Positions 41,523 through 60,048 of a DNA stretch of 64,000 nt are shown here, piece by piece; within the stretch, counting starts at the first letter, position 1; the number at the start of each line of letters is the position of its first letter. The DNA is taken from contig JAIUML010000015.1 in the NCBI GenBank assembly GCA_022565595.1, positions 1-64,000 on the forward strand, read 5' to 3'. A program made the translations under genes and the position numbers. The notes under the pieces are model-generated. The model was not told the origin of the DNA. It searched no databases and saw nothing but the letters and a program-made list of their open reading frames with translations. The stretch is from Saccharospirillum sp. Lineage in GTDB: Bacteria > Pseudomonadota > Gammaproteobacteria > Pseudomonadales > Natronospirillaceae.

Positions 41523-43391
41523 TTAGTCGTCTTCCTGCTCGTCGGTGTCCGGTATGACTCTCCACACTGCGGTGCAATTGGAGCAAGTTCCTGCGGGGCT
41601 GGCGGTAAACCAGAGCGCATTGCCCACCAGCGTCAGGTTGTCGATAAAACGAAAGGACTGCTCCAGACGAAGATTACCGCTACTTTGCCCCGAAATGGCG
41701 TAGATTCCTTGGCGAGCGGAATCGGTGACCCAGGCAAATTCACCAGCGGATACCGAACGCTCGCGGTTTGATTCGGCCCATACTGTTTCATCGTCGACCA
41801 GAACCGGAAGGGTACCACTGACGGTGCCATTGCTGATCCACCAGCGATTTCTCAATTCCTCGTCAGCATTGCTGGGGGATTGAAAAATGAAGCGATCACC
41901 GACAGCTAGCGTATTCCGGTTCAGAATATCCTGAACGGTCCAGCCAGCACCCAAACTGCTTTTCCAGTAGCCAGCGGTGCTCCCGATTGTGCCGTCGCTG
42001 TAGGCCAGCCTGGCATCAAAACGCCAGCCATTATTGGTGGTCATGTCCTCGTCATAGTGATTGGCGAAGAAATACAGGCGATCATTGGCGACGGTGACGT
42101 TATAGGCATTGCGAATGTCGGCGTTGGCAGGTTGATCCGGGTCGGGATTGAACAGCCGTGTTGTTGCTCCTGTACCAGACAGGTACCGCCACAGGGCCGG
42201 GCCATCGTCGTCGATCGCCTTGAAGTAGATACTGTTGCCGACACTGATCATTTCGGACGGCGCGCGACGATTCGTTGAGCCGCTGTCCATGCGCCAAACT
42301 TCGGTGGTTGCGCCGGTTTCCGGGTTGATGCGGTGCAAACTTCTGTGGCCGCTTTCCGTGCTGGAAGCATAAAACGCCCCCTGATGCCCAATGAGTTTGT
42401 TACCCACGCCGCCATTGTAAGGTTCGAAGGAGGGCAGTCTGAATGCTCCTCCATCGGACGCCGCGTCAATGAAGAAGATCCGGTCACGGGTATCTGCTGG
42501 GTAGTAAGCTACAAAAGCCACGCGATCTCCGACCGAAGCGAACTGGCGCACATTCGGGTTAGTGCTCAGCCCCAGGGTATTGCCTGAAACAGCAAGCTGG
42601 GTACCTTCGGGGGTTCCGTCCGTCACCCATATATCGGCGCCGCCTCCGGCATCACTTGTCCGATCTACCATAAAGTAGAGTTTGCCATTGTGTTCGTGTA
42701 CCTGGTTTGTATTTCTGCGAATGGTGGTATAGGTTTCGTCGTCAAGCGCAATTTCGGTGGTGCTTTCCAGGCTCCCCAGGCTAGCCCAGAATTCCAGCCC
42801 ATAGAACTTTTTGACGATAGCATAGGCGCCCGCAGAGAAAATCCGATTGGGATTTTCAAATCCAAGGTCCCTGCGCTCAAGCACACGATCGGCTGCAGTG
42901 CCCGGTGCTGCATCCGGGTCTTCCGGCATGGCTGTTAGAATGCTGGAGAGCCTTGTTCGGCCATCTTCCGCAGCGGCTTCAAGTTGCACCCAGTAGGGCT
43001 GATTGTTGGTCAAGTCGGCCAGGATGTAGGGTGAGGTAATGTCGTCCTTGTATTGAGCACCATTGTGAACAAGGCAGTTTTCCACGCCCCCAGTCAATGG
43101 CTCTTCAGCCAGGCAGAGATTGAATGTGACATCTGTGAAACTTGCCTGATTCCAATCGACGGTAATGGTTGCATTGCCTTCTGACAGGCTCATGCTCAGA
43201 CTCGGAAGTGGATCTGGATCTGGATCTGGATCTGGATCTGGATCAGGGTCAGTACCATTTTCTATTTCATCTTCTGTGGTGTCACCATTGCCATTGCCAT
43301 TGCCATTGCCATTGCCATTGCCATTGCCATTGCAGGCAGCAAGCGTCAATGTCAGTAGTAATGCGATAATCATGCGCGGGTCTAACGTCAT
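41523..43391 (-). CDS. Lipoprotein 1: ELWxxDGT-type beta-propeller with repeat linker
   Basis: A 622-residue predicted lipoprotein. Start taken at 43391, which gives a lipoprotein signal MTLDPRMIIALLLTLTLAAC; the frame is open for another 73 codons upstream, but these have no signal features. After the Cys come eight Asn-Gly units, then a Pro-Asp repeat, both encoded by hexanucleotide repeats. A fibronectin-like segment follows (about residues 65-150, ITVDWNQASFTDVTFNLC), then propeller repeats such as IWVTDGTPEGTQL and WWISNGTVSGTLP. Function is unknown. It is divergent from lipoprotein 2 across a 754-bp gap. Asn at +2 would allow outer-membrane sorting. Confidence 0.75.
   Translation of the reverse strand: MTLDPRMIIALLLTLTLAACNGNGNGNGNGNGNGNGDTTEDEIENGTDPDPDPDPDPDPDPLPSLSMSLSEGNATITVDWNQASFTDVTFNLCLAEEPLTGGVENCLVHNGAQYKDDITSPYILADLTNNQPYWVQLEAAAEDGRTRLSSILTAMPEDPDAAPGTAADRVLERRDLGFENPNRIFSAGAYAIVKKFYGLEFWASLGSLESTTEIALDDETYTTIRRNTNQVHEHNGKLYFMVDRTSDAGGGADIWVTDGTPEGTQLAVSGNTLGLSTNPNVRQFASVGDRVAFVAYYPADTRDRIFFIDAASDGGAFRLPSFEPYNGGVGNKLIGHQGAFYASSTESGHRSLHRINPETGATTEVWRMDSGSTNRRAPSEMISVGNSIYFKAIDDDGPALWRYLSGTGATTRLFNPDPDQPANADIRNAYNVTVANDRLYFFANHYDEDMTTNNGWRFDARLAYSDGTIGSTAGYWKSSLGAGWTVQDILNRNTLAVGDRFIFQSPSNADEELRNRWWISNGTVSGTLPVLVDDETVWAESNRERSVSAGEFAWVTDSARQGIYAISGQSSGNLRLEQSFRFIDNLTLVGNALWFTASPAGTCSNCTAVWRVIPDTDEQEDD
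43211..43240 (-). repeat. GATCTG hexanucleotide tandem repeat (5 units)
   Basis: Five exact GATCTG units, then a sixth variant (GATCAG), encoding the Pro-Asp repeat of lipoprotein 1 on the minus strand. Unit gain or loss keeps frame. Confidence 0.9.
43285..43332 (-). repeat. CCATTG hexanucleotide tandem repeat (8 units)
   Basis: Eight exact CCATTG units encoding (Asn-Gly)8 directly after the lipidated Cys of lipoprotein 1. Slippage would change tether length without shifting frame. Confidence 0.95.
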
Positions 43392-44008
43392 TGTCGGTAC
43401 CTTTTTTGTAGAATCATGGCAACTGAAAATCACCATCAAAAGATCTTGTCGTGGCCTTTCAAATAGCTCCATAAACTGCAGCAATGCTTTTTTAATGAAA
43501 AGCAGGACCTTTGCCGGGCTTATCAGGGGACAAGTTTGCTCAAGGAATAACGTCCTTATGTTTACTGCTGGTCCGCATTTTGGCCCCGCAGGAACTTCAG
43601 CAAGGCCCAAGCCGGGGGGTGGTACTAATGGCCGACCTTCTGCAGAGAGTCTGTCGCCACCTTTCTATGAATACACCGGCCTAATAATGCAACAAAAGCA
43701 GGGGCAGACAATTACCCGTTTGGGTTAGCCCAGCCCTCACCCAGAGGGCTTTACACTTCTTGTGTAATGCGTGGGTATCTTGCTGATATTGAGTAGCATA
43801 TTGTCGCTGACCCTCAAGTGAGCGATGCACAACTTTCGTTACTTGAGATCGTGAAGGTCGCGTTTATTCGGTATGAACCTCATGCTTTTCAGGATGCTTT
43901 ATGCATGCTTCTGAGCGGGCGAAAACATATTTCAGGGTAGTGCTTGTTTTATTAGATTAACCGCTGTCTTGGGTTAGCCTAAAAAGGGGATTGATTGGCA
44001 GGGGGATG
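43345..44008. repeat. Duplicated divergent intergenic module, copy 1
   Basis: About 664 bases that align end to end with 51630-52298. Shared blocks include GGTCTAACGTCATTGTCGGT, CTAATAATGCAACAAAAGC, GTTTATTCGGTATGAA and GGGTTAGC near the end. The module starts inside the signal-peptide codons of lipoprotein 1 and runs toward lipoprotein 2, so it is a copied divergent promoter region. It contains the 34-bp motif at 43709. The remaining 754-bp gap also has an 18-bp palindrome at 44017. Confidence 0.85.
43709..43742 (+). promoter_or_regulatory. 34-bp shared motif, copy 1
   Basis: Reads CAATTACCCGTTTGGGTTAG, then CCCAGCCCTCACCC. Contains the inverted repeat ACCC-N4-GGGT. The same block occurs at 51993 and 57089. 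Here AGCCCT (43732-43737) also pairs with AGGGCT (43745-43750). Confidence 0.75.
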
Positions 44009-44016
44009 TCTCGCAG

Positions 44017-44034: not shown

Positions 44035-44145
44035 AAAATCATCTTTCTAATATCCGAATAGTCTTAAAGAAAGCGCCGGATAAACATGCATGGCGTGGTC
44101 AAAATACTGGATGCTCCGATATCCGGAAAAAGGAAATGCGAAATC

Positions 44146-45423
44146 ATGAAACATCACCTCCCCGTTAAATTGTCGATGATGGCTATCATGATTGGCGCTC
44201 TTGTCGGTTGTGACAATGGCTCTTCAAGCTCCAACGAAAACGCGAACGTGACACCGGAAGACACAGAGCAGGAAACCGCCTCACTGCCGGAAACCAAGTG
44301 GCTGAGAGTCTACTCGGGTGACCTCTGCCCGATTGAAGGTGCGAGGGTGCTTGTGAACAACGACCAGGGGGCCCTCGTTGGCGAGCGAACCACTGATCAG
44401 GAGGGTCGCCTAGATCTTAATGACTTACCTGAAGAGGGAAGTCTGGGGGTTGTACGCAGACTGACGTTGTCGACATTTAGCGGAACCAGGACACTAACGG
44501 CCATTCAACACTACGACGTCGCCGTGCTTGGTGACGCTTCGACCATCCATTTTGCTGGTTCCGAACCTGAGTGTGAGGAAGATTCGAATACCAATGCTGG
44601 AGCAATCACCGTGGTCATAGAGAATGCTGCGGACTTTTCCAGCTACAGATATTCCACAGGCAATATTAATGATAGCCCACCAGACTCTCCACTGACGATT
44701 GGCCTTGAAGGGGATCAAGCCGTCATCATTGGCAATATTTCCGGTGGTGGCAGGCGCTACGCGCTGCTTGATATATCGACCCTGGAAGCCGGTGATGAAA
44801 TCGAAATCTCACTTGACAAAGCGATGCGAGAGATTGATGTCACTGCCAATGCCGATGTGAATCCTGGTACAGTCAGCAATTATTGGTTCAGCGAATCGGG
44901 TCACCGCTTCAATCTGGGCAGTACGGGCTCTTTCGGTCCATCTGTGACTGTAGATACTCTGGATGAGCCGGGCAGAGTGGCGATTTACAGTCAATCTATA
45001 CAAGATCCATCTCGCGTCGACGAATCCGTATTCGGTGATGCACAGACGGCTACTGAATTAGTATTTGAAGCGCGCAACAGCGATTTGCAAAGTGTCACGT
45101 TGGCGGATAATCGGTTTTACTACTGGACCTCTGTAGACCAAACCGGATTCACCCTGGGCCAGATTGATTATGGCAACGTTGTTCATGGTTACATGGCACA
45201 GGGAGCGCCTGAGCCATTGGTAATGCCGGATGTCCCATCGGACCTATTGGTGCCTGGTGATGTAGTAGAGAATAAGTCCTTTCTTATCTATACGATGGAT
45301 CCACTTGAATACTCATCATCAATGGCTGCTGCAGGGCTCAGAGTGAATGGCAATCGGGCGACTTTAATTGGACCGGTTGATTACACTGAGGAGCGATCGG
45401 CTGTTTATAGTGCGCGGTGGTAA
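44146..45423 (+). CDS. Lipoprotein 2, function unknown
   Basis: A 425-residue predicted lipoprotein. The start at 44146 gives the signal MKHHLPVKLSMMAIMIGALVGC with AGGA upstream; a longer frame from 44086 is open. The linker is short (DNGSSSSNENANVTPEDTE). The ectodomain begins with a carboxypeptidase-regulatory-like segment (LCPIEGARVLVNNDQGALVG, then TTDQEGRLDLNDLPE); the rest is beta-rich and unrecognised. Asp at position +2 after the Cys is the classical inner-membrane retention signal, unlike the Asn or Gly in the other seven lipoproteins of the cluster. Confidence 0.7.
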   Translation: MKHHLPVKLSMMAIMIGALVGCDNGSSSSNENANVTPEDTEQETASLPETKWLRVYSGDLCPIEGARVLVNNDQGALVGERTTDQEGRLDLNDLPEEGSLGVVRRLTLSTFSGTRTLTAIQHYDVAVLGDASTIHFAGSEPECEEDSNTNAGAITVVIENAADFSSYRYSTGNINDSPPDSPLTIGLEGDQAVIIGNISGGGRRYALLDISTLEAGDEIEISLDKAMREIDVTANADVNPGTVSNYWFSESGHRFNLGSTGSFGPSVTVDTLDEPGRVAIYSQSIQDPSRVDESVFGDAQTATELVFEARNSDLQSVTLADNRFYYWTSVDQTGFTLGQIDYGNVVHGYMAQGAPEPLVMPDVPSDLLVPGDVVENKSFLIYTMDPLEYSSSMAAAGLRVNGNRATLIGPVDYTEERSAVYSARW

Positions 45424-45441
45424 GGCTTTCTTTTCACAGCA

Positions 45442-45621: not shown

Positions 45622-45629
45622 GGGTTGAA

Positions 45630-45649: not shown

Positions 45650-45656
45650 AATAGAA

Positions 45657-47231
45657 CTACGGCTCAATACTAATCGGTAAAAAGATATTACCAGGAAAAC
45701 TGACAGAGCCTGTTGCCGCACTTTCGGCTTCAAGGTTATAGAATAACTCAGTACCTTCGTTGGTACCATCCGTTACCCATAATGCAAATCCGATACCTGA
45801 ACGATCATTTCCGGAAAACAGCAAACGACCATCTGGCAGCACAAAGTGCGGTACTGGCCCACTATTTGTGGTGGAGCCACTGCCACCTGTGCCTGGGTTC
45901 AAGTCTTTGACGAGTCGAGTATTGTCGGTTGTACCGTCCGTTACCCAGAGCTCTCGGCCATGAGTGCTATCGTTCGCGACAAAATAGACGCGATCCTCTA
46001 CTGCAACAAACCATTGAGGATCACTGTTATTGAAGGTTCCCGAACGAATGTCTTTCAACAAAAAGGTTCCCTCTGCAGAACCGTCCGTTACCCAGGGTTC
46101 CTGGCCATTTACGCCATCATCGGCTCGGAAGATGGCTTTACCGTCACCGATGGCCGTAATCCTGAACGGGCTTGAGCTGTTTTCACCCGGATTGATGTCT
46201 TTGACCAGGTAGGTACCTGCTTCAGTACCATTGGTTGCCCAGAGCTCAATGCCTTCATTGGGTGTTTGGGCTCGAAACAGAATGAGTTCGTCTGAAATTT
46301 TTGTGAACTGTGCGTCAACACCTTCCCGGTTGTAATCATCTCTGATGGTCTTGACTTTATAGGTGCCTTCACTCGTACCGTCGGTTATCCATGGACCCCA
46401 CTTTCCATTTTCTGCATCCTGAAAGTAGAAAATGGCTCTGCCATCATTGAGAGAGGTTAATCCTTGGGGCGATAGTCTTTCACTGTATATGACCTGTGTG
46501 CCGGCTACGGAACCATCGGTGACCATCAACCCCTGAAATTCAAACCCGGTTTCGGTATCAGGAATAAATAAACCGCTGAAAACAGCTTTACCATTCCCCA
46601 GAGGGGTTAGAAACTTTGGATCAATGTCTTCAGCGAGTACATTAGTACCCTGATCCGTGCCATCAGTCACCCAAAGGCTCCGTTTTGAGTCGCCTCCTGT
46701 GCTTCTGGCTGTAAAAACAACCTTTCCGTCATCGAGTTGGGTAAGGTTATTGGGGGAGGACCCATTGCTGTTGTAGATATTCTTTACCAGGTATGTACCA
46801 GACAATGTACCATCTGTACGGAAAAGTTCAGTTCCGGTATCGTCGTCCTCGCTGCCGGCGAAAAGGTAAACGTTTGGTGCCAATTCAACGGGCTGAGTGG
46901 CTGTAGACACGCCGCCACGGTTGCCAGCGAAGAGGTCAATCGGATAGAGCTCATTCGCGGTACTGTCTACACTGACCCAGAATTCGCTGCCGTACCCTGG
47001 TACGTTGGCTACGAAGAGAATACCCTGTGCCAGTTCAGTGTCGTCAACATTCGTGTCTGAACCGCTATCATCATTTTCCGAATCTTCATTCCCGGGCGGC
47101 ACGGTTTCCGCTTGCGTATTATCATCAGTGTCTTCTGTATCATTTGACGACGAACTGGCAGAGTCATTGCAGCCCTGGAGTGCCAGCACGGTCGTTAGAA
47201 CGAATAGAGTCGACTTTAATTTGAGTGTCAT
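45657..47231 (-). CDS. Lipoprotein 3: ELWxxDGT-repeat beta-propeller
   Basis: A 524-residue lipoprotein. The start at 47231 gives a compact signal MTLKLKSTLFVLTTVLALQGC; the frame opens 12 codons earlier. The linker is Ser/Asp/Glu-rich. The rest consists of regularly spaced repeats of the type W-V-T-D-G-T-x-x-G-T (for example SLWVTDGTDQGTNVL, ELWATNGTEAGTYLV, PWVTDGSAEGTFLL, ELWVTDGTTDNTRLV, LWVTDGTNEGTELF). This is the known ELWxxDGT repeat family, probably a secreted beta-propeller of unknown function. It is related in repeat type, though not closely, to lipoprotein 1. Confidence 0.82.
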   Translation of the reverse strand: MTLKLKSTLFVLTTVLALQGCNDSASSSSNDTEDTDDNTQAETVPPGNEDSENDDSGSDTNVDDTELAQGILFVANVPGYGSEFWVSVDSTANELYPIDLFAGNRGGVSTATQPVELAPNVYLFAGSEDDDTGTELFRTDGTLSGTYLVKNIYNSNGSSPNNLTQLDDGKVVFTARSTGGDSKRSLWVTDGTDQGTNVLAEDIDPKFLTPLGNGKAVFSGLFIPDTETGFEFQGLMVTDGSVAGTQVIYSERLSPQGLTSLNDGRAIFYFQDAENGKWGPWITDGTSEGTYKVKTIRDDYNREGVDAQFTKISDELILFRAQTPNEGIELWATNGTEAGTYLVKDINPGENSSSPFRITAIGDGKAIFRADDGVNGQEPWVTDGSAEGTFLLKDIRSGTFNNSDPQWFVAVEDRVYFVANDSTHGRELWVTDGTTDNTRLVKDLNPGTGGSGSTTNSGPVPHFVLPDGRLLFSGNDRSGIGFALWVTDGTNEGTELFYNLEAESAATGSVSFPGNIFLPISIEP

Positions 47232-47298
47232 GCTACTACCTACCTGTTTGATTTTTAGTAAATCCATTAGCTGAGCACCGAAAGGTGCTCATTGTTTA

Positions 47299-50200
47299 TC
47301 AGTGTCGGTTAACTGCCTGAGTATTGGTTATTACGGTTCGAGTACCCGGAGATTCACCGGTACAGTTGGTTCCTGAGAAAGCTCGGTAAAACTGCAGGGC
47401 ATTATCAAACCCCAGAATTCTATCGCCATTCAATCGGCCAGAAATAATTTCAAAGCCGGTGCGGGTGCAACCACCAGGGGAGACGTCCTCAAAGCTAGCA
47501 AAGACACTGAAGCAATCCCGGTTGCCGGTTATATAAGCTCTACTGGCTATGCCTGTATCACTTTCACTATCGTGCAGGCCCCGGTATTCGTAGTCTATGG
47601 AACCGTCGGGGTTCTGATTGTCAAACTGATATTGATAGCCGCTGATGGTGTCGTTCGGGTCCCGAGTTTCATCGTCGTCATAAACCAGGGACAGGTGGTC
47701 TGCCTGATAGGTACCACTGAGGGCAGGGGGTGTTGTTCCCGGGTGGATGCTGGCGCCCAAAGTCCGGAGTTCTTCGATCAATCCAGGGGTAAACAGCTCT
47801 GCCAGGTCTGATGGCAGGTTGACGGTATCGTTTTCGAGGTTGACCCCACAGCTACGGTTGGCATCGGTAGTCAGAATGTCAAAGCTCCGCTCGTTGCTGG
47901 TATAGCCGATGGAGCGCACACCATTGCGGTTCAAGGCGGATTTGGCAGCGTCCGAGCCGTCGCCGGCTGAGGCTGAGAGAAAGCGAACCGCAAAGGTGCC
48001 GCCTTCATCATAACTCGCAGCGCCGGCATGGACGCCAGCCCGACAGAGGTTGCTGTTTTCACGATAGAGTTCATTGCCCCAGACTTGACGGTTCAAAAAG
48101 CTGTAGGAGGCGGGCAAGGGTGGGCATTGGACGATGGCAATGCCAGGGTCGCCGAGCTCCTGGCGGACCATGGCGCCAGTCGTTACCCAATCGATATCGA
48201 GAGGGTTGTCCAGTGGAATGCGACCGCCCAACGCCATCAGGCCTGGATCAAAAGTACCCTGACGAATGCGTTCGGCCAGTTGAGCGCTGCGCGCGGTGGC
48301 GGCAAAGTCTGGCTCGCCTGTGAATCCGACATCGAAGACGCAGTTGTTGAACTCGACGCTGGGGTTGGTTACTCCTGCCGCCTCGCAGACGGCTTCGGCA
48401 AAGGCCCTTTCTTCTGTTGCAAGATCATCAATGGTGCGTCGAAATTCGGGAAAGGCTGGATCGGTAAAACTGGCAGTGTTTTCACCAGGTGCATAATCAA
48501 ACAATGAGGTGGCATCGGTGATGCGCCAACTGTCGATGAAGTCATCGTATAAGGCGTCGAGGTTGTCAGGATCAATGGCCGCGTCCGAACTCCGCGGGGT
48601 GAAGTCGTCCATTGGGTTATCGCTGACTCTACCCAGCAGGCCTCGAGTATCGGGCAACAACTGTACGTTCTCAATGTCCGGTAAATCGACATAGACATTC
48701 AGGAACTGTCTAGACGGGTATTGAACAATGGAAATCAGGTGGTCTCGCCCGGCGATCTGAAGAGTGTTCCCGACCAGAGAGATTTGCGCATCGGCTTGTT
48801 CAATCGGATAGCGCCCGAGCAATAACGGGTCGATGATCTCGCCATTAATGCGAATGCGCTCAGCCCAGGGGGCTTGCTGTGTGAAGGTGACCCGCGTATC
48901 ACCCAATTGCACGGCGGCGGCTACGGCGGCCGAGGCGTTATCCAGATTGCGCCAGGGCTGCGTGCGAATCTGAACCTCCATGTCAGTGTTCTTTGCCAGG
49001 GTGAACTCACCCACGGCCATCATGTCGTACTTGCTACCGTCGAAAGTGGTCATGTGCGGGTCCCCGTTGTTTTCGCCACAACGCGGAGTCACACAGAGAG
49101 GGCGCCGACGTCGGTTGTTCTCGTTAGGGAGCCCGTAGTTTGGCGGTGGTGGTTTGGGCGTCATGTTCTCCAGCGCCTGGTCGAAGCTGCTCTTCGCCCC
49201 CTGACCAAACTCCTTGAAGAAGTCGGCAACGCATTGGTTGCCAAAGTTGCACCCTTCAAGGCCATCTTTCATGCCGTCGATCATGTCGCTGGCCTTCGCA
49301 GGCACCATGCCTTTGGTACTGCCCTCGCGTGCTACGCCGAGCTGGTTGGTGTAAAGCAGTACTTCTGGTCCGTCGAGTCGCTCTAGTCCAAAAAAGCTGA
49401 TCTGGTTGGCTGCCATGCGCGCCTGTAATAAGGCGATGCCGTCTTCAGTGTCCGGATCCTGTTGCGACGGAGCGCCCTGAGCGAAGGCGTAATCGACCAG
49501 CAAGGCATCGCCAGGCGCCAGGACGGAGGCATCGAGGAAGGTCAAATCAATACTCAATTCATCGTCAAAGGAAATGCCGCGGTTAGCGTCTGCGCGTGGG
49601 GTGGCCAGCACTGCCACTGCAGTCTTGCCATTATACTCCAGTAATCCAGCGACAAGTTCGATGTCGGTACGAGGTTGCAAGTCGGCGGAACCTGACTGAG
49701 GTTGCAGTAACTCTGGCTGCAACACCGTTGACAGAGGCGTAAAGTTAACACCCTCCATCAATTCGATGCGGTCTTCAGGAAAAACCAGGGTCGCCAGATG
49801 GTTAATAATGGCATTTGTTATGTTTTTCTCTGCGTCGTGCGGGCTAAGGCGTCGCCAGCGCTCAAAAATCCAGAAATCCTGAGTGTGCCCAAGGGCTTCG
49901 AGATTTTCTGTTGTGAAGCGCCATTCAGCCGCAGTCTCGAGGGAGGTTCCTGCTTCACTGGCAAGGCCCGACAAAACCCTTGCCTCGTAGGTGGTGTCAG
50001 GTTGGAGAAGGGTTGATGGTGTGAACCGAAGTGTCTGCCCGTCTTCAGTTAAGGCCAGGCTTCCATTGACTGCATCACTTTGATCTTCCGGGCTCAGCAC
50101 AAAGCTGTATTCACCGTTAAGCATGCTGGCATCGATGGGCTGATCAAAATTGGCTTCTACTGATGTGTCAAGTCGCACACTGGTCTCGTTGTTGTTGGGT

Positions 50201-50343: not shown

Positions 50344-50466
50344 TGTTTTACTCAGATCTTGAAGTGACGCCGGATAATTTTTGTCAGCGTTGTAGAGCAA
50401 GCATCCATGCTTGCGGAATAGTCATCCGAGACGGCTATAAGGCGTGCTTATTGAATGACGATTGGA

Positions 50467-51396: not shown

Positions 51397-51613
51397 CGAT
51401 TCTTTCCTTCTATAGATTTTAATTGTAGAGACTGCAAATTTTGTTCAAATCCTTTGCGCAATTGATTGAAACAAACAGAGCCACCTATGGTTCAGGTTTT
51501 TCCGGCAGTGAATGGGTGCTGGTTCGGAACTGAAGGCAGCAAATTAGGCCGCCAGGTCCAAGACTACTCCATGGAACCCTATTACACGTCCATGACGCAA
51601 TCCCTTGTTTGGG

Positions 51614-51676
51614 TTAGCCGATTTCAAGAGCCAGGGTCAGTAATAGTGCGATGATCATGCACGGGTCTAACGTCAT
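51614..51676 (-). pseudogene. Truncated lipoprotein leader, remnant of a lipoprotein 1 paralogue
   Basis: The minus strand from ATG 51676 reads MTLDPCMIIALLLTLALEIG and then stops. It matches the first 17 residues of lipoprotein 1 (MTLDPRMIIALLLTLTL), and its upstream DNA matches too. The lipobox Cys and everything after it are gone. This is the left end of the second copy of the duplicated module, so a full divergent partner gene was probably lost here. Confidence 0.75.
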
Positions 51677-52298
51677 TGTCGGTACCTTCTCTATTTTCGA
51701 ATCATGGCAACTGAGAATCGCCATCAAAAACTTTCCGTTGCCTTCTAAATTGCCTTATAAAATTCGGCAATGCTTTTTTGAGAGAAAAAGCACTTTTACC
51801 CGGCTACTGAAGGGAAATGTTTGTTCAAGGAGTAACGCCCTGTTGTTGACTGCTGGTATGCATTGTGACTCGACATGGGCTTCTCAAAGACCCAAGCAAG
51901 GGGCATTGCTCATGGCCGGCTATTTAGAGAGCGCCGATCACCACTATCCATTAAATTTACCAGCCTAATAATGCAACAAAAGCGGGGTCATACAATTACC
52001 CATTCGGGTTAGCCCTGGCCTCACCCACACTCACGCAGAGGCCAGTACTTTTGTTGTGTAATGCCTTAGCAATCTTGCTGAAACCGGTGAGCCTGGGTGC
52101 TGCACATCCAGCGAGCGGTATACCACTTTCGTTATTTTATATTGTGAAAACTGCGTTTATTCGGTATGAATCTCATGTTTAACCGGAATTTCCATGGTTT
52201 CTTTTAATGAGGTAGGAATATATCAGGTCGCTGCTTGTTCGAATAGATTAAACTTTGCTATGGGTTAGCTTAAATGGATGATTGAGAAGGGAGGTTAT
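51630..52298. repeat. Duplicated divergent intergenic module, copy 2
   Basis: Aligns with 43345-44008 over the full length, with many substitutions and small indels; the best-conserved block is around CTAATAATGCAACAAAAGC and the 34-bp motif. It lies in the 984-bp gap between lipoproteins 5 and 6. The part from 51397 to 51629 shows only TTTGGGTTAGCC at 51608-51619, another copy of the motif centre. Confidence 0.85.
51993..52026 (+). promoter_or_regulatory. 34-bp shared motif, copy 2
   Basis: Reads CAATTACCCATTCGGGTTAG, then CCCTGGCCTCACCC. CTGGCCT here pairs with AGGCCAG about 17 bases further on, where copy 1 pairs AGCCCT with AGGGCT: the hairpin is kept while its bases change. Confidence 0.75.
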
Positions 52299-52380: not shown

Positions 52381-53583
52381 ATGAGCGCTCAATCTCCCCT
52401 TTTTTGGGCCACCTTGCTTTGTGTATCCAGCCTGACATTGTCTGGCTGTAACAGCAGTAGCGACGGTGGCGCCGCCTCAAACGATCCGCCCACAGGAAAT
52501 GGTAACGGTAACGGCGATGGTAATGGAGGCGGTAGCGGTGACGGCAATAACGACGGTGATGGCGGTGGTGATAGTGGCACCCTCAGTGTTGTTCGAACCT
52601 ATCCAACAGATGGTGCGACCCTGGTGCCCCTGAATGCCATCATTCGCGCCGAACTGAATAATGATATTAACGAGTCGTTTCAGGATGAGTTGATCAAGCT
52701 TTACCAGGGCGCGTTGGAAGTGTCGGGCCAGGGCCGGAGTACCGATTTACCCTATAATGAGATCCGCTTTACCCCAGCAAGCCCGCTAGAAAAAGACACC
52801 GAATACAGTGTTACGCTCTTTGCCGACCTGGAAGACAATGAGTTCAATGAGCTCGGTGTGAATTACAACTGGACCTTTCGAACGCTGGCGAAAGACTGGA
52901 CGACAGAATCCTCCTTAACGGCCGATCTTGAAGCCGCTTATCTCAGTCGTGGTGAAAACAACAGCAGAACAGGTGATCGTTATGATGGTCCCGAAATCGC
53001 GATGAATGTGCAGGGTGACGCCGTTGTCGCATGGTCCAGTGTTTTAAGCCTTGACTCTGGTGTGATAGAGACAGACCTTGTTGTTCGGCTTTTTGATTCA
53101 AGTACCGGACAGTGGTCGTCTCCGGAGGTATTGGGTCGGCATGAGTTTCGGGATAGTGGTGACGGTGGGGCTTATCGCCCTGGCATCGCGATCAACGCAG
53201 GTGGTGACATCCTGGTTGCGTACCCAAGCAATAACGAGACTGGCCAGTCCATGATCGTTTATCAATGGGATGGTGTTGATTGGAGTGATACAATCATCGC
53301 AACAGATAGTATTGAATCAACATTTGATGCTAATGGTTACTACCGGTCGGCGCGTGTGGCTCTGGATGATAGCGGCTCTGCAGCTGTCGTTTGGGGGCAG
53401 CGATTGGATACGTTGGACTCACTAGACGATTCTACGTCTCCTTTTATTTGGGCGTCACACTTTGATGAGGCGTCAGGTGAGTGGGACGATGATCCGACTG
53501 GCCTCAGTCTCGCCATGAGACATGGTGGCACACCAGGCAGTAGTACAGGTCAATCCGCTTTGTACTTCAGGTTGCTTGAATAA
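52381..53583 (+). CDS. Lipoprotein 6: Ig-like domain plus propeller-like repeats
   Basis: A 400-residue lipoprotein. Start taken at 52381 (MSAQSPLFWATLLCVSSLTL, lipobox LSGC), although the frame opens at 52282. The linker is a long Gly/Asn/Asp stretch. An SbsA/Big_5 Ig-like domain follows (VVRTYPTDGATLVPLNAIIR, then IRFTPASPLEKDTEYSVTLF). Then come repeats with the pattern P-x-I-A-x-N-x-x-G-D-x-x-V-A (EIAMNVQGDAVVAW, GIAINAGGDILVAY, RVALDDSGSAAVVW), probably blades of a beta-propeller. Only about three blades are present, so the gene may be short of a full propeller. Function is unknown. Confidence 0.72.
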   Translation: MSAQSPLFWATLLCVSSLTLSGCNSSSDGGAASNDPPTGNGNGNGDGNGGGSGDGNNDGDGGGDSGTLSVVRTYPTDGATLVPLNAIIRAELNNDINESFQDELIKLYQGALEVSGQGRSTDLPYNEIRFTPASPLEKDTEYSVTLFADLEDNEFNELGVNYNWTFRTLAKDWTTESSLTADLEAAYLSRGENNSRTGDRYDGPEIAMNVQGDAVVAWSSVLSLDSGVIETDLVVRLFDSSTGQWSSPEVLGRHEFRDSGDGGAYRPGIAINAGGDILVAYPSNNETGQSMIVYQWDGVDWSDTIIATDSIESTFDANGYYRSARVALDDSGSAAVVWGQRLDTLDSLDDSTSPFIWASHFDEASGEWDDDPTGLSLAMRHGGTPGSSTGQSALYFRLLE

Positions 53584-53620: not shown

Positions 53621-53636
53621 AGTTCGAAGGAATCTA

Positions 53637-54806
53637 TCAGTCTGACTCGCGAGCCAGAATGGTTACACGATTACCGACAGCGATGACGTTGTCGGCATTC
53701 AGGGCATGGACACCTCTCAAGGCCGTATTCTCGTTGAAGCCAGTCGGCAAGTCCGTCACGCTTTCTTCGTACCAGGTGATACCACCATTTTCTGTGTAGA
53801 AGATTTTGGCGACTGCGTTGTCGGACCCTATGCCATTACCAACCAGCCAGCCACGTTGCGCATCGACAAAGGCCATATCATAGATATTCATGCCACCGTC
53901 CTGGAAAGCCAGACTCCATGTCAAACCCCCATCCGTAGTTCTCATTACTCTGGAAACGCCAGCAAGGTAGCCATGATTGTTGTCGACGAATTGAACGAGA
54001 TCAAAGCGGTCAGCATAAGGGCCGATTTGCTCGTAAACACCTGTTTTCCCTGTCTGCCAGTTCACACCACCATCGGTGGTGTAATAGTAGCTGTCGTTGG
54101 TCTCGTCTTCTGTGTCTCGGCCTACAGCCCAGCCGTTCATGGTGTCAACAAAGGAGACACTCAGAAAGGGAAGCCCATTGCCAAAGTCGAATGCGACTTT
54201 GTTCCAGGTGTTGCCACCATCGGTGGTGTGCAGGATAAAGCGGTCACTTTCCTCGACAGTGAGGGCATTGTGGCCGCCTGCTATCCATCCATGAGTAGCA
54301 CTGACGAACTCGATATCGAAAAACGTGCCTTCATCGGAGATTGGGTGGCTTTGTTCGCTCCAGGTTGCTCCCGCATTTTGCGTTCGTAGTATCATGGGAG
54401 GATTACCCGATGAGAGTCCGCCGACAATCCAGCCATTGTTTTCATCCACAAAGTGGACGCCGGTAAGCCTGTTCCAATAGTCGTTGACATACTGCGTCCA
54501 GGTGCCGCCACCATCCGTAGATTTTAAAATGAGGGCACCGATTCCTCCGAACTCGCTGGGTGTTCCCTGTCCCACTGCCCAGAGGGTATTCTTATCGAGC
54601 TGAAAGATGCTGTAGAGTGAAGAGGTTGGTGTCTTGTCTGCATCGATTAGCGTCCAGCTTCTGACATCGGCGTCGGGAGTCGTTCCGTTTCCATTGTCTG
54701 TATCCGATGGATCCGTACTACTGCTTGAACTATTGCAGCCTGACAGAAGTACAGCCGCCGCTGTCAGAATAGAAAGAAATGCGGGTTTTACATAGTGGGT
54801 GTTCAT
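53637..54806 (-). CDS. Lipoprotein 7: Asp-box (YCF48-like) beta-propeller
   Basis: A 389-residue lipoprotein with signal MNTHYVKPAFLSILTAAAVL and lipobox LLSGC, then a Ser/Asp/Thr linker. The ectodomain contains five Asp-box type repeats (KSTDGGGTW, HTTDGGNTW, YTTDGGVNW, RTTDGGLTW, YTENGGITW), alternating with G-W-x-V-G strands (NNGWIVGG, MNGWAVGR, QRGWLVGN). This matches YCF48/BNR-like propellers; in other contexts these help assemble complexes or bind glycans. No catalytic residues of a sialidase are evident. Function is unknown. Confidence 0.8.
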   Translation of the reverse strand: MNTHYVKPAFLSILTAAAVLLSGCNSSSSSTDPSDTDNGNGTTPDADVRSWTLIDADKTPTSSLYSIFQLDKNTLWAVGQGTPSEFGGIGALILKSTDGGGTWTQYVNDYWNRLTGVHFVDENNGWIVGGLSSGNPPMILRTQNAGATWSEQSHPISDEGTFFDIEFVSATHGWIAGGHNALTVEESDRFILHTTDGGNTWNKVAFDFGNGLPFLSVSFVDTMNGWAVGRDTEDETNDSYYYTTDGGVNWQTGKTGVYEQIGPYADRFDLVQFVDNNHGYLAGVSRVMRTTDGGLTWSLAFQDGGMNIYDMAFVDAQRGWLVGNGIGSDNAVAKIFYTENGGITWYEESVTDLPTGFNENTALRGVHALNADNVIAVGNRVTILARESD

Positions 54807-54928: not shown

Positions 54929-56899
54929 CTACTGCATTTGTACTTTGAGAATGTGGTTACCCTCGCCAAGCAAGTAAAGCGTGTCATCTTTTCTCGCCAG
55001 CCCTCTCAAGGGGTGACTCAATTCATAGGCTTGCCAGGATTCGCCGTTGTCGCTTACCCAGAGTGTGTTGCGGCCATCGTCTTTCAAGTAGAACCTTTCA
55101 CCATCGTTAAAAATATTGCTGGCGGTGACGACTGCTTCCTCAGGGAATTCGGAAGCAGACCACGTTAAACCACCGTCAGTACTGTAAGCCGTGCGACTGT
55201 GAGATGTTGTAGGCGCAGCTGCGACAACCTTGTTGCCAATAGAAGAAAGCCGTACAAAGCCCATATTGGTCGTATTTATGGCACGTTGAGACGTCGTCCA
55301 TTCGTCGCCATCCGAGCTGAGTCTTGCCCAACCGCCAAAGCTGATGACGAGGTAGCCGTTATCTGTGGCGACCAGGCTTCTGGAGGCATCGGGCGCCTCA
55401 TCGAGGGTGCAGCCGGAGGGTGTGCAGATGGCAAGAACATCATTTGCGAGATTGTTGCCAACCATGGCCATCCAGACGTCATTTCGACCCGCTACATGAG
55501 AGAAGAAAACATTGAGTCCTCCAGTTCGAGGATCTACTACAGACCAACTCTCTCCGTCCAGGCTGTGGGCTACGGTGTTAGTGCCACTGGCAACAAAACG
55601 TGTTCCCGTCCAGGCGATGTCGGTAAGGTAGGGCGAACCAGTGAGCGTGACTTCACTCCAGTCGGTACCGTTATCACTGTAGACGGCGCGACCATTCTCA
55701 CTGATAGCAACCATCCGGCCCAAGTCGTCTTTCGCCATTTTTTGCCAGCCGTTGGCGGTGAGCGTCGTTTCGCTGTCTGTGCTCCAACTAGTGCCATTGG
55801 TAGAGGAGACGATAGCGCCATTGTTGCCCACAGCAAAAAAGCCTTTGGAGGTGTGGGTAATGTCATTGAGCGCATCGGAGTTTACGGTGGTGACGCGCTC
55901 CCAGGTGGCCTCGTCCCCGGCTCTCTTGTGGATAGAGCCTTTATTGTCCGCAAACCAGTATGAGCTATCAGTAAACGTCAGGGAGTTCAGGATGGCACTG
56001 CCTTGAGCCGGGCCCGCGAGTGCGAAAGCGTAGTTGAAGTCAACACCTGTATCGCTCCAGCTCTTTCCTATTGTGCTAGAGCGGAAACCGTACTGGTTGT
56101 AGCCGCCCGATACAGCAAACTGAGAACCATTGAAATGGACATCGGTTACATTCGAATTGACACCCGACGTTATCGACACCTCACGGTTCCAGGTGGCTCC
56201 TCCGTCTTCACTCAGGTGGATTTCATGGCCATTGCCGGTTACCAATCTTGCACCGTTGGAGGCGACGCTTGACGTGGCCCGCGAGGGACCAGCGTTTACC
56301 TTGGTCCATACTTTGCCATCCGTACTGCTGATGTGGGCATTGCTTTGAGCGCCCAGTGCGATGAAATGGTTGCCTGTCCAGGTAACGGCATTCAAGCCGC
56401 CGACATCGTCAGGTAGAGTCGCACTTTCCCAGCTGTTTCCGTCGTCTTCACTGAAAAAGGCTCTGGCTCCAGAATTGGGGTTGTTTCCACCACCGACAGC
56501 GACCAGCGTGGGTCCATTGCTGACGATGTCTCTCAAGGTGGTTGAAGCGGTTTCTGCAGTCGTCCAATTACTGCCGTCTGAAGATATCAGCACAGTGCCA
56601 CGGGCACCAACTGCTACCAGTTTATGATTGTGCTCAATGACAGCATTGAGCGAGTAACCTTGAGGCAGTGGATGTATCCAGGTTGCGGCAAGGATTGTGC
56701 TGCCGTCTTCGTTGTCCTGGTTCCCTGTATCGTTGTCCGTCTGGCCATTATCGGTGTCGGTATGGCCGTTGTCTTGTGAGCCATCACCAGTGCCTGTTCC
56801 GCTATTGTTTTCGCCACCACTGCTGCTGTTGCATCCCGCCAGTGTTAAAGCACTACAAAGTAAGATGTAGAGAGGTAAAGAAGATCGTTTAGAGGTCAT
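54929..56899 (-). CDS. Lipoprotein 8: large Asp-box beta-propeller
   Basis: A 656-residue lipoprotein. The start at 56899 is preferred to 56908 because AAGGG then lies nine bases upstream. Signal MTSKRSSLPLYILLCSALTL with lipobox LAGC, followed by a Gly/Asn/Asp/Thr linker. About ten Asp-box-like repeats cover the rest (SSDGSNW, SEDDGNSW, SSTDGKVW, SEDGGATW, SSTNGTSW, YSDNGTDW, HSLDGESW, SSDGDEW, STDGGLTW, VSDNGESW), consistent with one or two beta-propellers. It is on the minus strand next to lipoprotein 7 and divergent from the two-component genes. Confidence 0.8.
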   Translation of the reverse strand: MTSKRSSLPLYILLCSALTLAGCNSSSGGENNSGTGTGDGSQDNGHTDTDNGQTDNDTGNQDNEDGSTILAATWIHPLPQGYSLNAVIEHNHKLVAVGARGTVLISSDGSNWTTAETASTTLRDIVSNGPTLVAVGGGNNPNSGARAFFSEDDGNSWESATLPDDVGGLNAVTWTGNHFIALGAQSNAHISSTDGKVWTKVNAGPSRATSSVASNGARLVTGNGHEIHLSEDGGATWNREVSITSGVNSNVTDVHFNGSQFAVSGGYNQYGFRSSTIGKSWSDTGVDFNYAFALAGPAQGSAILNSLTFTDSSYWFADNKGSIHKRAGDEATWERVTTVNSDALNDITHTSKGFFAVGNNGAIVSSTNGTSWSTDSETTLTANGWQKMAKDDLGRMVAISENGRAVYSDNGTDWSEVTLTGSPYLTDIAWTGTRFVASGTNTVAHSLDGESWSVVDPRTGGLNVFFSHVAGRNDVWMAMVGNNLANDVLAICTPSGCTLDEAPDASRSLVATDNGYLVISFGGWARLSSDGDEWTTSQRAINTTNMGFVRLSSIGNKVVAAAPTTSHSRTAYSTDGGLTWSASEFPEEAVVTASNIFNDGERFYLKDDGRNTLWVSDNGESWQAYELSHPLRGLARKDDTLYLLGEGNHILKVQMQ

Positions 56900-57088
56900 T
56901 CTGGTCATCCCTTGCTAGTAATGAATACAATCAGATTCTTGCTTTCCATAGTTTTCAGTTATGAGATGGCAAAATAATCTGAATTATTGTGCTGAATCGG
57001 TATCAGAACGCAGCTTATCTGGCTTGGCATGAGGCGCTGGACTCGATTAACTGGTACAGCTATGTAATGCTATTCTCACTACTTCAGG

Positions 57089-57122
57089 CAATCACCCCTT
57101 TGGGCTAACCCTTCTCTCACCC
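57089..57122 (+). promoter_or_regulatory. 34-bp shared motif, copy 3, upstream of the response regulator
   Basis: Reads CAATCACCCCTTTGGGCTAA, then CCCTTCTCTCACCC. It ends 89 bases before the response-regulator ATG in the divergent gap with lipoprotein 8. The flanking DNA is not related to the duplicated modules, so the motif itself is conserved. The rest of this 312-bp gap shows nothing else that I can name. Confidence 0.75.
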
Positions 57123-57211
57123 CCAATATGTTATTGTTATCAACAGCAGGTGTGAGATAGATTCTGTTAAAGTTGTCAGCGAACGTAATTCTCGATTATC
57201 AGGAGCCTGGA

Positions 57212-57862
57212 ATGCAGAAAGTATTTATTGTCGAAGACCATCTGGAAACCAGGGAATGGCTGGTGTCGATCGTAAAAGAGTCTTTTGATAACCCGGACAT
57301 CGCCGAAGCAGGTACCGTAGAGAAGAGCTATCGTTGGTTGGAGCAGAACACCCCTTCGTTAACACTGGTAGATCTAAGCCTGCCCGATGGTAACGGCCTT
57401 GACCTGATCAAGTACTTAAATGAGCATTTCCCGGAAAATTACATCGTTGTTACTACCATCTTCGATGACGATCGCCATTTGTTTAACGCCTTGCGCGCTG
57501 GTGCCAGCGGTTACTTGTTGAAGGATCAGCCGCGCCGCTCCATGGTCGAGAGCCTGTCCGGCATCATGTCCGGTAAGCCGCCGCTCAGTCCGGCCATTGC
57601 TCGGCGCATGCTGAGGCATTTTCAGCAGGATAGTGGTGCGAGCAAGGAAACGCCGTTGTCAGAGCGTGAGGCCGAGGTTTTAACCTTGCTGGCAAAGGGC
57701 ATGGGTCGTAATGATATTGCAGACTTGTTGGAGGTTTCTGTTAATACGGCCGCCAGCCATATCAAATCGATCTATCGCAAACTGAATGTATCCGGAAGAG
57801 CAGAGGCGACTCTGCAGGCGGTCAAGATGGGTCTGGTATCGAGCAATATAAAAAATAGATGA
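57212..57862 (+). CDS. NarL/LuxR-family response regulator
   Basis: A 216-residue response regulator. The start at 57212 (MQKVFIVEDH) has AGGAG upstream. Receiver domain: acidic pair in VEDH, phosphorylation site Asp54 in LVDLSLPDGNG, and Lys in YLLKDQ. C-terminal LuxR helix-turn-helix: LSEREAEVLTLLAKGMGRND and SVNTAASHIKSIYRKLNVSG. It overlaps the kinase gene by four bases (ATGA), so the pair is translationally coupled. Target genes are unknown; the 34-bp motif upstream of its own gene and inside the lipoprotein cluster is the obvious candidate site. Confidence 0.92.
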   Translation: MQKVFIVEDHLETREWLVSIVKESFDNPDIAEAGTVEKSYRWLEQNTPSLTLVDLSLPDGNGLDLIKYLNEHFPENYIVVTTIFDDDRHLFNALRAGASGYLLKDQPRRSMVESLSGIMSGKPPLSPAIARRMLRHFQQDSGASKETPLSEREAEVLTLLAKGMGRNDIADLLEVSVNTAASHIKSIYRKLNVSGRAEATLQAVKMGLVSSNIKNR

Positions 57863-60048
57863 GACCCATTTTTTCTTCACTAAAAACGATGAAACCACTG
57901 GCCCCAGTTCCCGCCATGTTGCTGGGTATGGTTGTTTCGATGGTACTGGTCGTATTGGCCGCTTCCTATGCGGTTTCCCATCCCTGGCTTGGCCTATCGT
58001 TCGATTACGATGAAGTCAGTCAGCGCCCCTTGATTACCCGGGTGCACCGTTCAGATCTGGCTTCGCATCTGAACGAAGGCGATATCATTCGCTCAATCAA
58101 GAGCAAGGATCGCCTCCGGGAGGTCTACCTCTTTGGTTTTGTCCCGGGTATTGAGCCACCAAGTTTTGCCACTTTTCAGGAGCACAACGATTATCTGGCT
58201 CGAGAAGATTCGATTGCCAGGATATTGGCTGGTAACGACGTGCTGTTTGAGCTTCAAAATGGCAGGTCGGTATCCGTTAGCCTGCTGGAAAGCCGACCCC
58301 TGTCGAGCCTGCCTTATGAGTTCTGGCTGTTTAACCTCTTTGGTTTGCTGGCATGGAGCATCGGGCTCGCGGTGTTTGCTGTACGACCTGCCATTGTTGC
58401 AGCAAGGCTGCTTGCGTTGTCCGGGTTCGGGTTTTACCTGGCCACCTTGTTCAACAGCATTTATTTGAGCCGAGAGTTTGCCTTGCCGCAACAAGAGTTT
58501 TTGGTCTTGTCGAGGCTTAATCATTTCGGTTTAAGCGTCATGCTGTTCGCCCTGCTGGCATTGATGGCTTATTTTCCGAGAAGGATCAGTCGTTTCTCGC
58601 CTTTGTGGGTGATCTTTCCAGTCGGCATTGTTATTCAATTGAATGAGTGGCAGCAGTGGTTCCAGTGGCCAGTGCATGCCTACTACCTTCCGATCTTTAT
58701 TCTTTATATGGCAGGCGTCGGTGTGGCCATCTATCAGTGGCGGCTGTCTCGCTCTAATCCACTGGATAGAGCGGCATTGAAGTGGATGTTGCTGGCCATT
58801 TTTATCATTATGGGATTAGGCCTGTCGATCTACTTTGTACCCATTGCACTGGTCGGCACTGAGATATTCCCGCAATGGGCAATGGTGGGCATTGCATCGC
58901 TCCTCTATATTGGTTTCGCCTTTGGCATTGTGCGCTATCGGCTCTTTGACGTTCAGCGTTGGTGGTTGAAAGTCTGGGGCTGGTTTCTGGTGGGTCTCGC
59001 CATTGTGGGTCTCGACTTGTTGATGATCCTGGTGCTGAAGGTTCAGCCCCTCGTCGCCTTGAGTGTGGCCGTTATTTCTATAGGCTGGATTTACTTTCCG
59101 ATTCGCCAGGTATTGCTTAATCGACTGGCCCGGCTGACCGGGACGGATGATCATCGGCTTGTCGATCAGGTCGAAGCCATGGCTCAAACCATCCCGGGGC
59201 GGGATTCGAACAGTCGGTGGCAGCAAGTCCTCGTTAACCAGTTTTCACCTGCTGGCGTTGACTATGATGAAGAAGTCGTTGATGCAGTTCATCTAGAGCA
59301 CAATGGTGCAGTGATGGCGGTGCCATTGGTAGCCGGTGTCGGTACGCTCAGGTTGACTTACCCGGATTATGGACGGCGACTGTTCTCATTGTCGGATGTC
59401 GACTACGTGCAAAGCCTGTTGCAGATTTCAAGGCGAATTCTGGCGGTTCATGAGGTTGAAATACAGGCGGTCAAAGAGGAGCGGCAACGCATTGTGCGGG
59501 ATTTGCACGATGATGTTGGCGGGCATCTATTAACCTTGCTCAGGCAAGCCCCTTCCGAAAGTTACGAGAAACTTACTCGTAATGCGCTTCAGGCCTTGCG
59601 TGAAGCCATGAAGGCCATGGATAGCCAGGCTCAACAACGCTTGATCGATTGCCTGGAGGATTGGCGTGTGGAGCTTGAGCAACGGGTGAATGACCACCGA
59701 ATCAATTTATTGTGGCGCCTTAAAGTCGCGGATTCTGATACTGAAATCAGCGTCCGGCAGGCCATCAATATTGGCAGAATACTGTCCGAAAGTGTGAGCA
59801 ACGCACTGCAGCATGCACAGCCTAGCTACATCATAGTGCAAACAGAGGTGAGTGACACCGCCATAACAATGCGTATCGAAAACGATGGAGTGGCGGCCGT
59901 CCCCGAGGGCAGGAGTGTCGACAGAGGGCGAGGATTGAACAATATGTTGACTCGCGCCACAGAGTTGGGAGGCAAGTTCGATTTCAGTGAAAAAAGGGGG
60001 GTGGCAAAGGCTTACGCCATTTTGCCATTAGCGCAGGTGAATGACTAA
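57859..60048 (+). CDS. Membrane histidine kinase (HisKA_3 type) with periplasmic PDZ-like segment
   Basis: A 729-residue sensor kinase. After an N-terminal span (about 19-40) comes a periplasmic segment of about 100 residues with PDZ-like features (LITRVHRSDLASHLNEGDII). Six to eight membrane spans follow (about residues 150-420). The cytoplasmic end has the NarL-type dimerisation/phosphoacceptor helix with His550 in RIVRDLHDDVGGHLLTLL, the N-box ESVSNALQHAQ, and the G-box GRGLNNMLTRA. Catalytic residues look intact. It pairs with the response regulator just upstream. Input could be a peptide or envelope signal through the PDZ-like part; that is inference. Confidence 0.88.
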   Translation: MRPIFSSLKTMKPLAPVPAMLLGMVVSMVLVVLAASYAVSHPWLGLSFDYDEVSQRPLITRVHRSDLASHLNEGDIIRSIKSKDRLREVYLFGFVPGIEPPSFATFQEHNDYLAREDSIARILAGNDVLFELQNGRSVSVSLLESRPLSSLPYEFWLFNLFGLLAWSIGLAVFAVRPAIVAARLLALSGFGFYLATLFNSIYLSREFALPQQEFLVLSRLNHFGLSVMLFALLALMAYFPRRISRFSPLWVIFPVGIVIQLNEWQQWFQWPVHAYYLPIFILYMAGVGVAIYQWRLSRSNPLDRAALKWMLLAIFIIMGLGLSIYFVPIALVGTEIFPQWAMVGIASLLYIGFAFGIVRYRLFDVQRWWLKVWGWFLVGLAIVGLDLLMILVLKVQPLVALSVAVISIGWIYFPIRQVLLNRLARLTGTDDHRLVDQVEAMAQTIPGRDSNSRWQQVLVNQFSPAGVDYDEEVVDAVHLEHNGAVMAVPLVAGVGTLRLTYPDYGRRLFSLSDVDYVQSLLQISRRILAVHEVEIQAVKEERQRIVRDLHDDVGGHLLTLLRQAPSESYEKLTRNALQALREAMKAMDSQAQQRLIDCLEDWRVELEQRVNDHRINLLWRLKVADSDTEISVRQAINIGRILSESVSNALQHAQPSYIIVQTEVSDTAITMRIENDGVAAVPEGRSVDRGRGLNNMLTRATELGGKFDFSEKRGVAKAYAILPLAQVND

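Follow-up and report, generated by a model that had tools for sequence, protein, structure and literature searches.

A lineage-variable island of tethered lipoprotein genes in Saccharospirillum sp. at the centre of a predicted regulon spanning several genera

A 64,000-nucleotide stretch of contig JAIUML010000015.1 from Saccharospirillum sp. (termed the window, i.e. the whole stretch of DNA analysed) contains at positions 41523–60048 an island of eight lipoprotein genes (g1–g8, numbered left to right), followed by genes for a response regulator (RR) and a sensor histidine kinase (HK). This island varies between lineages and is the hub of a predicted regulon of tethered lipoproteins that crosses genus boundaries. 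Probably it is the central part of a regulon devoted to surface lipoproteins and controlled by the RR-HK pair. The observations are the gene content of the island, copies of an operator element, synteny with another genus of the family, recurrence of the arrangement around related kinases, and the absence of the block from congeners.

Gene content of the island

The source genome (4.77 Mb in 66 contigs, 99.94% complete) carries the window as contig C15. The open reading frame list places the eight lipoprotein genes, RR and HK where an earlier note, made from the sequence alone, had put them:

41523–43391, minus strand: g1, tethered lipoprotein with (NG)n + (DP)n tether and weak ELWxxDGT-like signal
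44086–45423, plus strand: g2, tethered lipoprotein, CarboxypepD_reg-like N-terminal part, remainder without known family
45657–47267, minus strand: g3, ELWxxDGT-repeat lipoprotein with TIGR04534 match
47299–50400, minus strand: g4, Big_5 + VWD + LCCL lipoprotein (Pfam)
50467–51396, minus strand: g5, small tethered lipoprotein, nothing credible in Pfam/NCBIfam
52381–53583, plus strand: g6, Big_5 lipoprotein, probable start ATG 52381
53637–54806, minus strand: g7, Asp-box (Ycf48-type) propeller lipoprotein (Pfam, NCBIfam)
54929–56908, minus strand: g8, Asp-box/DUF6242 lipoprotein (Pfam)
57173–57862, plus strand: RR, NarL-type, Response_reg + GerE (Pfam)
57859–60048, plus strand: HK, ComP-like sensor kinase (Pfam, structure model)

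All eight lipoproteins (8/8 by regular expression) display a lipobox Cys after a hydrophobic signal, and then a low-complexity tether rich in Ser, Gly, Asn or Asp, which bears out the common plan proposed earlier. The small sample of 400 kb taken elsewhere in the same genome has three such tethered lipoproteins; eight in 15 kb are thus far from chance.

The operator element within the island

A 34-bp element is found upstream of the island genes. It consists of CAATnACCC, four bases, the near-palindrome GGGYTARCCC, and then CTCACCC. At 43709, 51993 and 57089 the first 22 bp fit the derived pattern without mismatch, and all three copies run on to CTCACCC; the claim that a 34-bp motif links the promoters of the lipoprotein genes with that of RR-HK therefore stands. 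Copies with three mismatches to the 22-bp pattern are present at 51598 and 52263, which makes 5 matches vs a mean of 0.02 in shuffled sequences; a further copy lies at 43972. The copies and an associated relic are:

43709–43742, no strand: operator, 34 bp, between g1 and g2
43971–43993, no strand: second operator copy, nearer g2
51598–51619, no strand: operator copy, 3 mismatches, precedes g5-g4-g3
51625–51985, minus strand: relic of the g1 5′ region, in which the signal peptide ends after ~20 codons
51993–52026, no strand: operator, 34 bp, precedes g6 and the relic
52262–52284, no strand: weaker operator copy, nearer g6
57089–57122, no strand: operator, 34 bp, between the divergent g8-g7 and RR-HK

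Gaps within the proposed operons are 66, 31 and 122 bp, and these short distances suggest that g5-g4-g3 and g8-g7 are operons. The element precedes each proposed transcription unit, so that all ten island genes lie downstream of an operator if such short-gap neighbors are co-transcribed.

Positions 43340–43894 are duplicated at 51625–52187 with 73%–88% identity, the truncated signal peptide included. To judge from its sequence, the duplicate is the relic of a lost g1-like lipoprotein gene. As the operators at 43709 and 51993 lie in the duplicated promoter region, they share ancestry. The possibility that the motif is a mere relic of one duplicated promoter was rejected, because the 57089 copy, the off-island copies and the cross-genus copies are outside the duplication. 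Chance occurrence was rejected by the shuffle test and by the genome-wide, base-rate and core/position tests given below.

No Rfam family of structured RNA leaders matches at the gathering threshold. A promoter scan found 19 candidates vs 17.6 (standard deviation 4.5) in shuffles, and a terminator scan 30 vs 19.8 (standard deviation 4.5).

The operator elsewhere in the same genome

A genome-wide pattern built from the island sites only (≤3 mismatches) yielded 10 matches vs 1 for the reversed control, with five in the island and five outside. Four of the five off-island matches precede tethered lipoprotein genes (five genes; L006, L007, L008, L162). These sites (C6:32166, C1:103597, C1:187529 and C26:39978) are about 210–370 bp before the lipobox, and that at C26:39978 is between a divergent lipoprotein pair. 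The fifth match (C8:145030) is within an aldehyde dehydrogenase gene. On the base rate of three tethered lipoproteins per 400 kb (small sample), the chance that a random site falls within 450 bp of such a lipobox is about 0.3%. The bare core occurs six times in the 400-kb sample, never upstream of a lipobox open reading frame.

Among the five off-island lipoproteins, one is a DUF5122 propeller, one has a PKD domain and one is a Calx-beta protein of 2288 residues (Pfam); the divergent pair has no Pfam match. The DUF5122 protein (L158) has a homolog (E = 1e-59) among the lipoproteins of the RR-HK locus in a Marinobacter metagenome-assembled genome (L073). Thus two lines, motif and gene neighborhood, point to the same protein family.

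The operator in other genomes

A loose pattern performed no better than its reversed control and was discarded. A second pattern (≤1 mismatch) was run in seven genomes. The core GGGYTARCC(C) is intact in 16 of its 23 matches, and all 16 are intergenic. Fourteen of the 16 have a tethered lipoprotein or RR downstream by script, and the other two (L169, L164) by eye; the lipoprotein downstream of L164 is L088:12203–12811. Eight of the 16 sites are in the source genome, five of them in the island, and two overlap at one place in G010, a genome from another genus of the family. By contrast, the seven broken-core matches are all inside called open reading frames, and none has a target by script (0/7).

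The three second-pattern matches in G010 represent two places, the g6/g1 and g8/RR promoters; the first of these two promoters shares 91% identity with window positions 43684–43730. The core is upstream of RR in G010, Natronospirillum (G016), Marinobacter (L073) and Alcanivorax (L076), and upstream of lipoproteins in L073, L078 and L088. In Alcanivorax limicola (L088:12121) the full 34 bp closely match the 57089 site of the window. Among the 17 loci with the closest kinases (L073–L089), an intact core near RR or a lipoprotein is found only in L073, L076, L077, L078, L088 and probably L074.

Synteny and probable insertion

G010 has in one block g6, g1, a PQQ-propeller lipoprotein, g3, g4, g7, g8, RR and HK, the proteins being 42%–88% identical to those of the window. 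There g8, g7, g4, g3 and the PQQ gene run in the same direction from the g8 site. The earlier note took a lack of synteny in any relative as grounds for abandoning its idea; since G010 holds most of the cluster, that objection falls away. Distribution is narrow: full-length g4 is found only in the source genome (G000) and one other (G010) among 145 genomes.

The island is part of a larger segment:

40185–61250, no strand: about 21-kb segment between glnK and pspF, with TctC gene, island and AraC-type gene

Between the ends of the glnK and pspF open reading frames lie ~21 kb in the window, against 43 bp in S. impatiens and 472 bp in S. salsuginis. Because the site is empty in these two congeners, the 21-kb segment appears to be an insertion; loss of the segment in both congeners is less likely. 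The view that the island is common to the genus was rejected, given the empty sites and a search of five further genomes of the genus, in which g4 was not found. The segment edges share only an 8-base word, and no integrase is present among the ten island genes, the TctC gene or the AraC gene.

In G010 the block (near 850 kb) is not next to amtB (225 kb); the AmtB proteins of the window and G010 share 74% identity. The ectodomain of g6 is nearly identical in the two (by eye), its DNA 89% identical. A very recent transfer as the sole cause of this likeness was rejected, because the DNA is only 89% identical. Near-identity of the protein at this DNA identity implies that purifying selection, as well as transfer, has been at work.

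Kinase family and its lipoprotein neighbors

The kinase is present in 15 of 145 related genomes, the source genome included. A scan with the kinase sequence alone gave no confirmed relative; an alignment-based scan with one genome per species gave 222 relatives, of which 80 were retained. At these 80 loci, tethered lipoproteins among open reading frames of ≥240 amino acids amount to 23/151 within 1.5 kb of the kinase, 4/106 at 1.5–3 kb, 2/124 at 3–5 kb, 1/159 at 5–7.5 kb and 0/76 beyond 7.5 kb. The enrichment is 27/257 within 3 kb vs 1/235 at ≥5 kb (Fisher 1.8e-7), or 23/211 vs 1/183 in the non-redundant set (Fisher 4e-6). A tethered lipoprotein is within 3 kb at 25 of the 80 loci (21/68 with near-duplicates removed). 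The neighbors are from unrelated families: ELWxxDGT, Asp-box, DUF5122, PQQ, PD40, fn3 and unnamed ones. An Alcanivorax kinase has beside it a protein that looks, by eye, similar to the PQQ protein of the G010 block.

Regulator and sensor kinase

Residue 14 of the RR open reading frame is the Met that lines up with most relatives. The sensor half of HK (residues 1–419) was modelled with AlphaFold2 from 67 sequences, with a mean predicted local distance difference test score (pLDDT) of 92.7. The layout is a helix at 16–39, PDZ-like strands plus helix at 46–141, eight helices at 153–393 and one more, final helix that may be linker, followed by HisKA_3 and HATPase. In this model the PDZ-like domain would be extracytoplasmic and the helical bundle would be in the membrane.

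Pfam finds PDZ_2 in 17, PDZ in 11 and PDZ_6 in 8 of 67 kinase family members. The window HK itself has no Pfam match to PDZ or to 7TMR-DISM_7TM; the PDZ-like part asserted earlier is thus supported by predicted structure and by relatives. With the sensor half, Foldseek gave only weak seven-helix matches, none at E ≤ 0.001; the 50 matches listed include no PDZ entry. HisKA_3 scores 23.4 bits (cut-off 24) and HATPase_c 22.7 bits (cut-off 26.4) in the window HK; in the 14 kinase relatives HATPase_c is matched in 14/14 and HisKA_3 in 11/14. The HK profile matches DesK structures.

ComA of Bacillus is a NarL-type regulator, and a LuxR/NarL-type partner is common to ComP and the kinase described here. 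The layout of HK is comparable to that of ComP: a first helix, a PDZ-like domain, a multi-helix bundle, a cytoplasmic linker and HisKA_3/HATPase, with the PDZ domain of ComP being extracytoplasmic between TM1 and TM2 (PMC9620489). The likeness is one of predicted architecture, by layout rather than by direct sequence comparison or descent; of the 10 NCBIfam matches listed for HK, headed by MadS and LiaS, none is a ComP model. Unlike ComP/ComA, the present system is in a Gram-negative host, the targets found are lipoproteins, and no comX/comQ-like gene is among the window open reading frames of ≥100 amino acids, smaller ones not having been searched.

The 7TMR-DISM receptors carry a DISMED domain, in place of which this kinase family has the PDZ-like domain; the Pfam model 7TMR-DISM_7TM matches three of the 67 family members. 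Among the matches listed in the open-licence literature (subscription papers and preprints lay outside its scope), no description of this system was found.

Proposed mechanism

The kinase, by its PDZ-like periplasmic domain and helical membrane bundle, would sense an envelope or external cue and phosphorylate the NarL-type regulator. The regulator would then bind the ~34-bp operator before its own operon and before g1, g2, g5-g4-g3, g6 and g8-g7, and also that before at least four promoters elsewhere in the genome. In this way it would control the amounts of at least 13 tethered, lipid-anchored proteins, many of which have beta-propeller or Ig-like domains. The majority are predicted to reach the outer membrane and would probably bind surfaces, polysaccharides or other cells there. 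Binding of the operator by RR is what we infer from its position; we also infer the sign of control and the surface exposure of the regulon lipoproteins.

A role in adhesion or binding is plausible by analogy, on the basis of the domain types and of a precedent in Brachyspira pilosicoli. BPP43_05035 of that species is a surface lipoprotein with a six-bladed propeller, an adhesin that depends on surface N-glycans to bind host cells (PMC11444514). It is a beta-propeller lipoprotein like several proteins here, likened by description and not by sequence; it differs in being from another organism, and the available part of the source mentions no linked two-component system (PMC11444514). The ELWxxDGT, Asp-box/BNR, DUF5122 and PQQ propeller families, present in g3, g7, g8 and several regulon or locus members, name domains and not systems, and their family descriptions attach no regulator. 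Of the proposal that the island encodes a regulated set of surface binding proteins, the regulated set is strongly supported by synteny, operators and cross-genus recurrence, while the binding or contact part is conjectural.

Several observations weigh against the proposed regulon. Lipoprotein calls were made by regular expression and not by a signal-peptide predictor. G010 lacks counterparts of g2 and g5. The second pattern was tuned on sites already seen and gave 23 matches vs 11 for its reversed control (about twofold), so that its discrimination comes from core and position and not from total count; the 10-base palindrome alone occurs 14 times vs 5.3 expected over 1.4 Mb. Of the broken-core matches, L171 may immediately precede the actual start of a transglycosylase-like lipoprotein that has no tether, and L156 is within an rlpA-like gene, 231 bp before dacA. 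No core is found near RR or a lipoprotein in L075, L079–L087, L089 and L099, including both Saccharospirillum relatives; because many close kinase relatives show none near RR, the operator code is not universal in the kinase family. There is no RR directly beside the kinase in L088, and 55 of the 80 kinase loci have no tethered lipoprotein within 3 kb, many of the contigs being truncated. In E. coli, Asp at position +2 of a lipoprotein causes retention in the inner membrane; three of the 13 regulon lipoproteins (g2, L159, L160) have Asp at +2, which speaks against outer-membrane sorting of these. A search for SLAM gave no match in the source genome, and since the control genomes were equally silent, this is uninformative.

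A wider generalization can be offered tentatively, as a possibility with somewhat less than even prospects. The Gram-negative PDZ/membrane-bundle kinases may, as a whole family, be constantly partnered with tethered outer-surface lipoproteins and serve as a portable switch of the surface repertoire. The operator code, the regulator and the kinase would be fixed, the displayed proteins would be swapped between strains and genera, and the PDZ-like domain might read the lipoproteins in a closed loop.

Alternative explanations

An explanation that appears unlikely, if the best of the alternatives, is envelope surveillance, in which the PDZ-like domain would read lipoproteins that are unfolded or mis-sorted, or the C termini of such proteins, with the regulator adjusting lipoprotein production and the proteins being quality-control clients. 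C termini are ligands of the PDZ domains in DegS-type proteins, and the kinase has a PDZ-like sensor domain; its linkage to unrelated lipoproteins in many genera fits a client class better than a single ligand. However, the eight island proteins share no C-terminal sequence (by eye), and the intact-core sites (those of the two patterns only) lead to lipoproteins and to the system itself, with no chaperone, protease or Lol gene.

A co-receptor role of the lipoproteins, in which at least one of them would bind a cue outside and touch the kinase while the rest were passengers, is improbable. Lipoprotein inputs of this type are RcsF of the Rcs and NlpE of the Cpx system, and a single lipoprotein is often within ~300 bp of the kinase (e.g. 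L118, L130, L131, L136, L141, L149). The adjacent lipoproteins are nevertheless from several unrelated families, and the operator data make lipoproteins targets, which a co-receptor need not be.

Least probable is that the element is the site of another regulator (e.g. the AraC-type gene product or a global factor) with RR-HK as a mere target: RR binding is deduced from position only, the AraC-type gene is inside the same 21-kb segment and several close kinase loci are without the element, but the AraC-type protein is unmatched (E ≤ 1e-4, among the matches listed) in 20 relative stretches, including G010 where the element is conserved, and the element precedes the RR gene in four other genomes or loci (G010, G016, L073, L076).

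Under the dedicated RR-HK regulon, tethered propeller lipoproteins without an assigned role here are brought, more than 12 in one genome, into one predicted regulon by the shared operator, and lipoproteins of Marinobacter, Alcanivorax and Natronospirillum join it with a named candidate regulator. Their function thereby becomes testable by a single gene deletion, and a ComP-like sensor gains a concrete candidate output in Gram-negatives.

Individual lipoproteins

The earlier note counted two ELWxxDGT propellers. This holds clearly for g3, which matches TIGR04534 with 280 bits (cut-off 65; E = 2e-85) in 7 stretches and has a 71% identical ortholog in G010. It is doubtful for g1, which at 22 bits is below the same curated cut-off; a BLAST search of g1 matched two ELWxxDGT proteins weakly (E = 5e-7 and 2e-4). 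The ortholog of g1 in G010 (L029:1760–3640) is 81% identical. From the sequence, the true start of g1 is probably the in-frame ATG at 43391, with the lipobox Cys as residue 20, and not the TTG at 43610. The (DP)n and (NG)n parts of the tether come from hexanucleotide arrays at 43209–43244 (6 copies) and 43285–43333 (8 copies). As two such arrays encode it, tether length could vary in frame.

The two Asp-box propellers (g7 and g8) were borne out by matches to Asp-box/sortilin-type models; g7 has a 45% identical ortholog in G010, and g8 has orthologs in G010 (42%) and Marinobacter L073 (49%), the latter adjoining the RR-HK pair there. For g4 the Ig-like plus von Willebrand D composition was correct (Big_5 and VWD), and an LCCL domain had been missed; its ortholog in G010 is 75% identical. 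For g6 the Ig-like part (Big_5) was found, and no model matched a propeller. Compared with its nearest relative, the G010 copy (L206:1147–3228), g6 lacks 271 residues in frame, much of the C-terminal half.

No credible family was found for the two proteins counted as unknown folds (g2 and g5). The single Pfam match of g2 is weak (CarboxypepD_reg, E = 0.005) and its structure model is unusable (pLDDT 38), while g5 gave nothing credible. Among 390 genomes of the order, homologs of g2 and g5 were found in the source genome only; in a Marinobacter metagenome-assembled genome (L073) a g2 homolog adjoins the RR-HK pair. A C-terminal stretch of g5, 44 residues long, resembles an off-island candidate regulon member (E = 0.004).

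Other observations

The 31-bp gap between g4 and g3 holds an 8-bp hairpin with a GAAA loop (47272–47291), which could attenuate or terminate transcription. A TctC-type solute-binding protein gene (40270–41244) and an AraC-type regulator gene (60045–61019) are inside the 21-kb segment, and the HK and AraC-type genes converge without a gap. At 38113–40184, amtB is between two glnK-like genes (glnK-amtB-glnK, named by sequence resemblance).

In two Alcanivorax loci (L074:12107–14311 and L076:12143–14341) a second, diverged kinase copy directly follows the first. Natronospirillum has a repeat lipoprotein that appears FG-GAP-like by eye (L030:6430–8340) ~9 kb from its RR-HK pair, and a similar FG-GAP-like fragment is near the pair in S. 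impatiens (L033:314–859).

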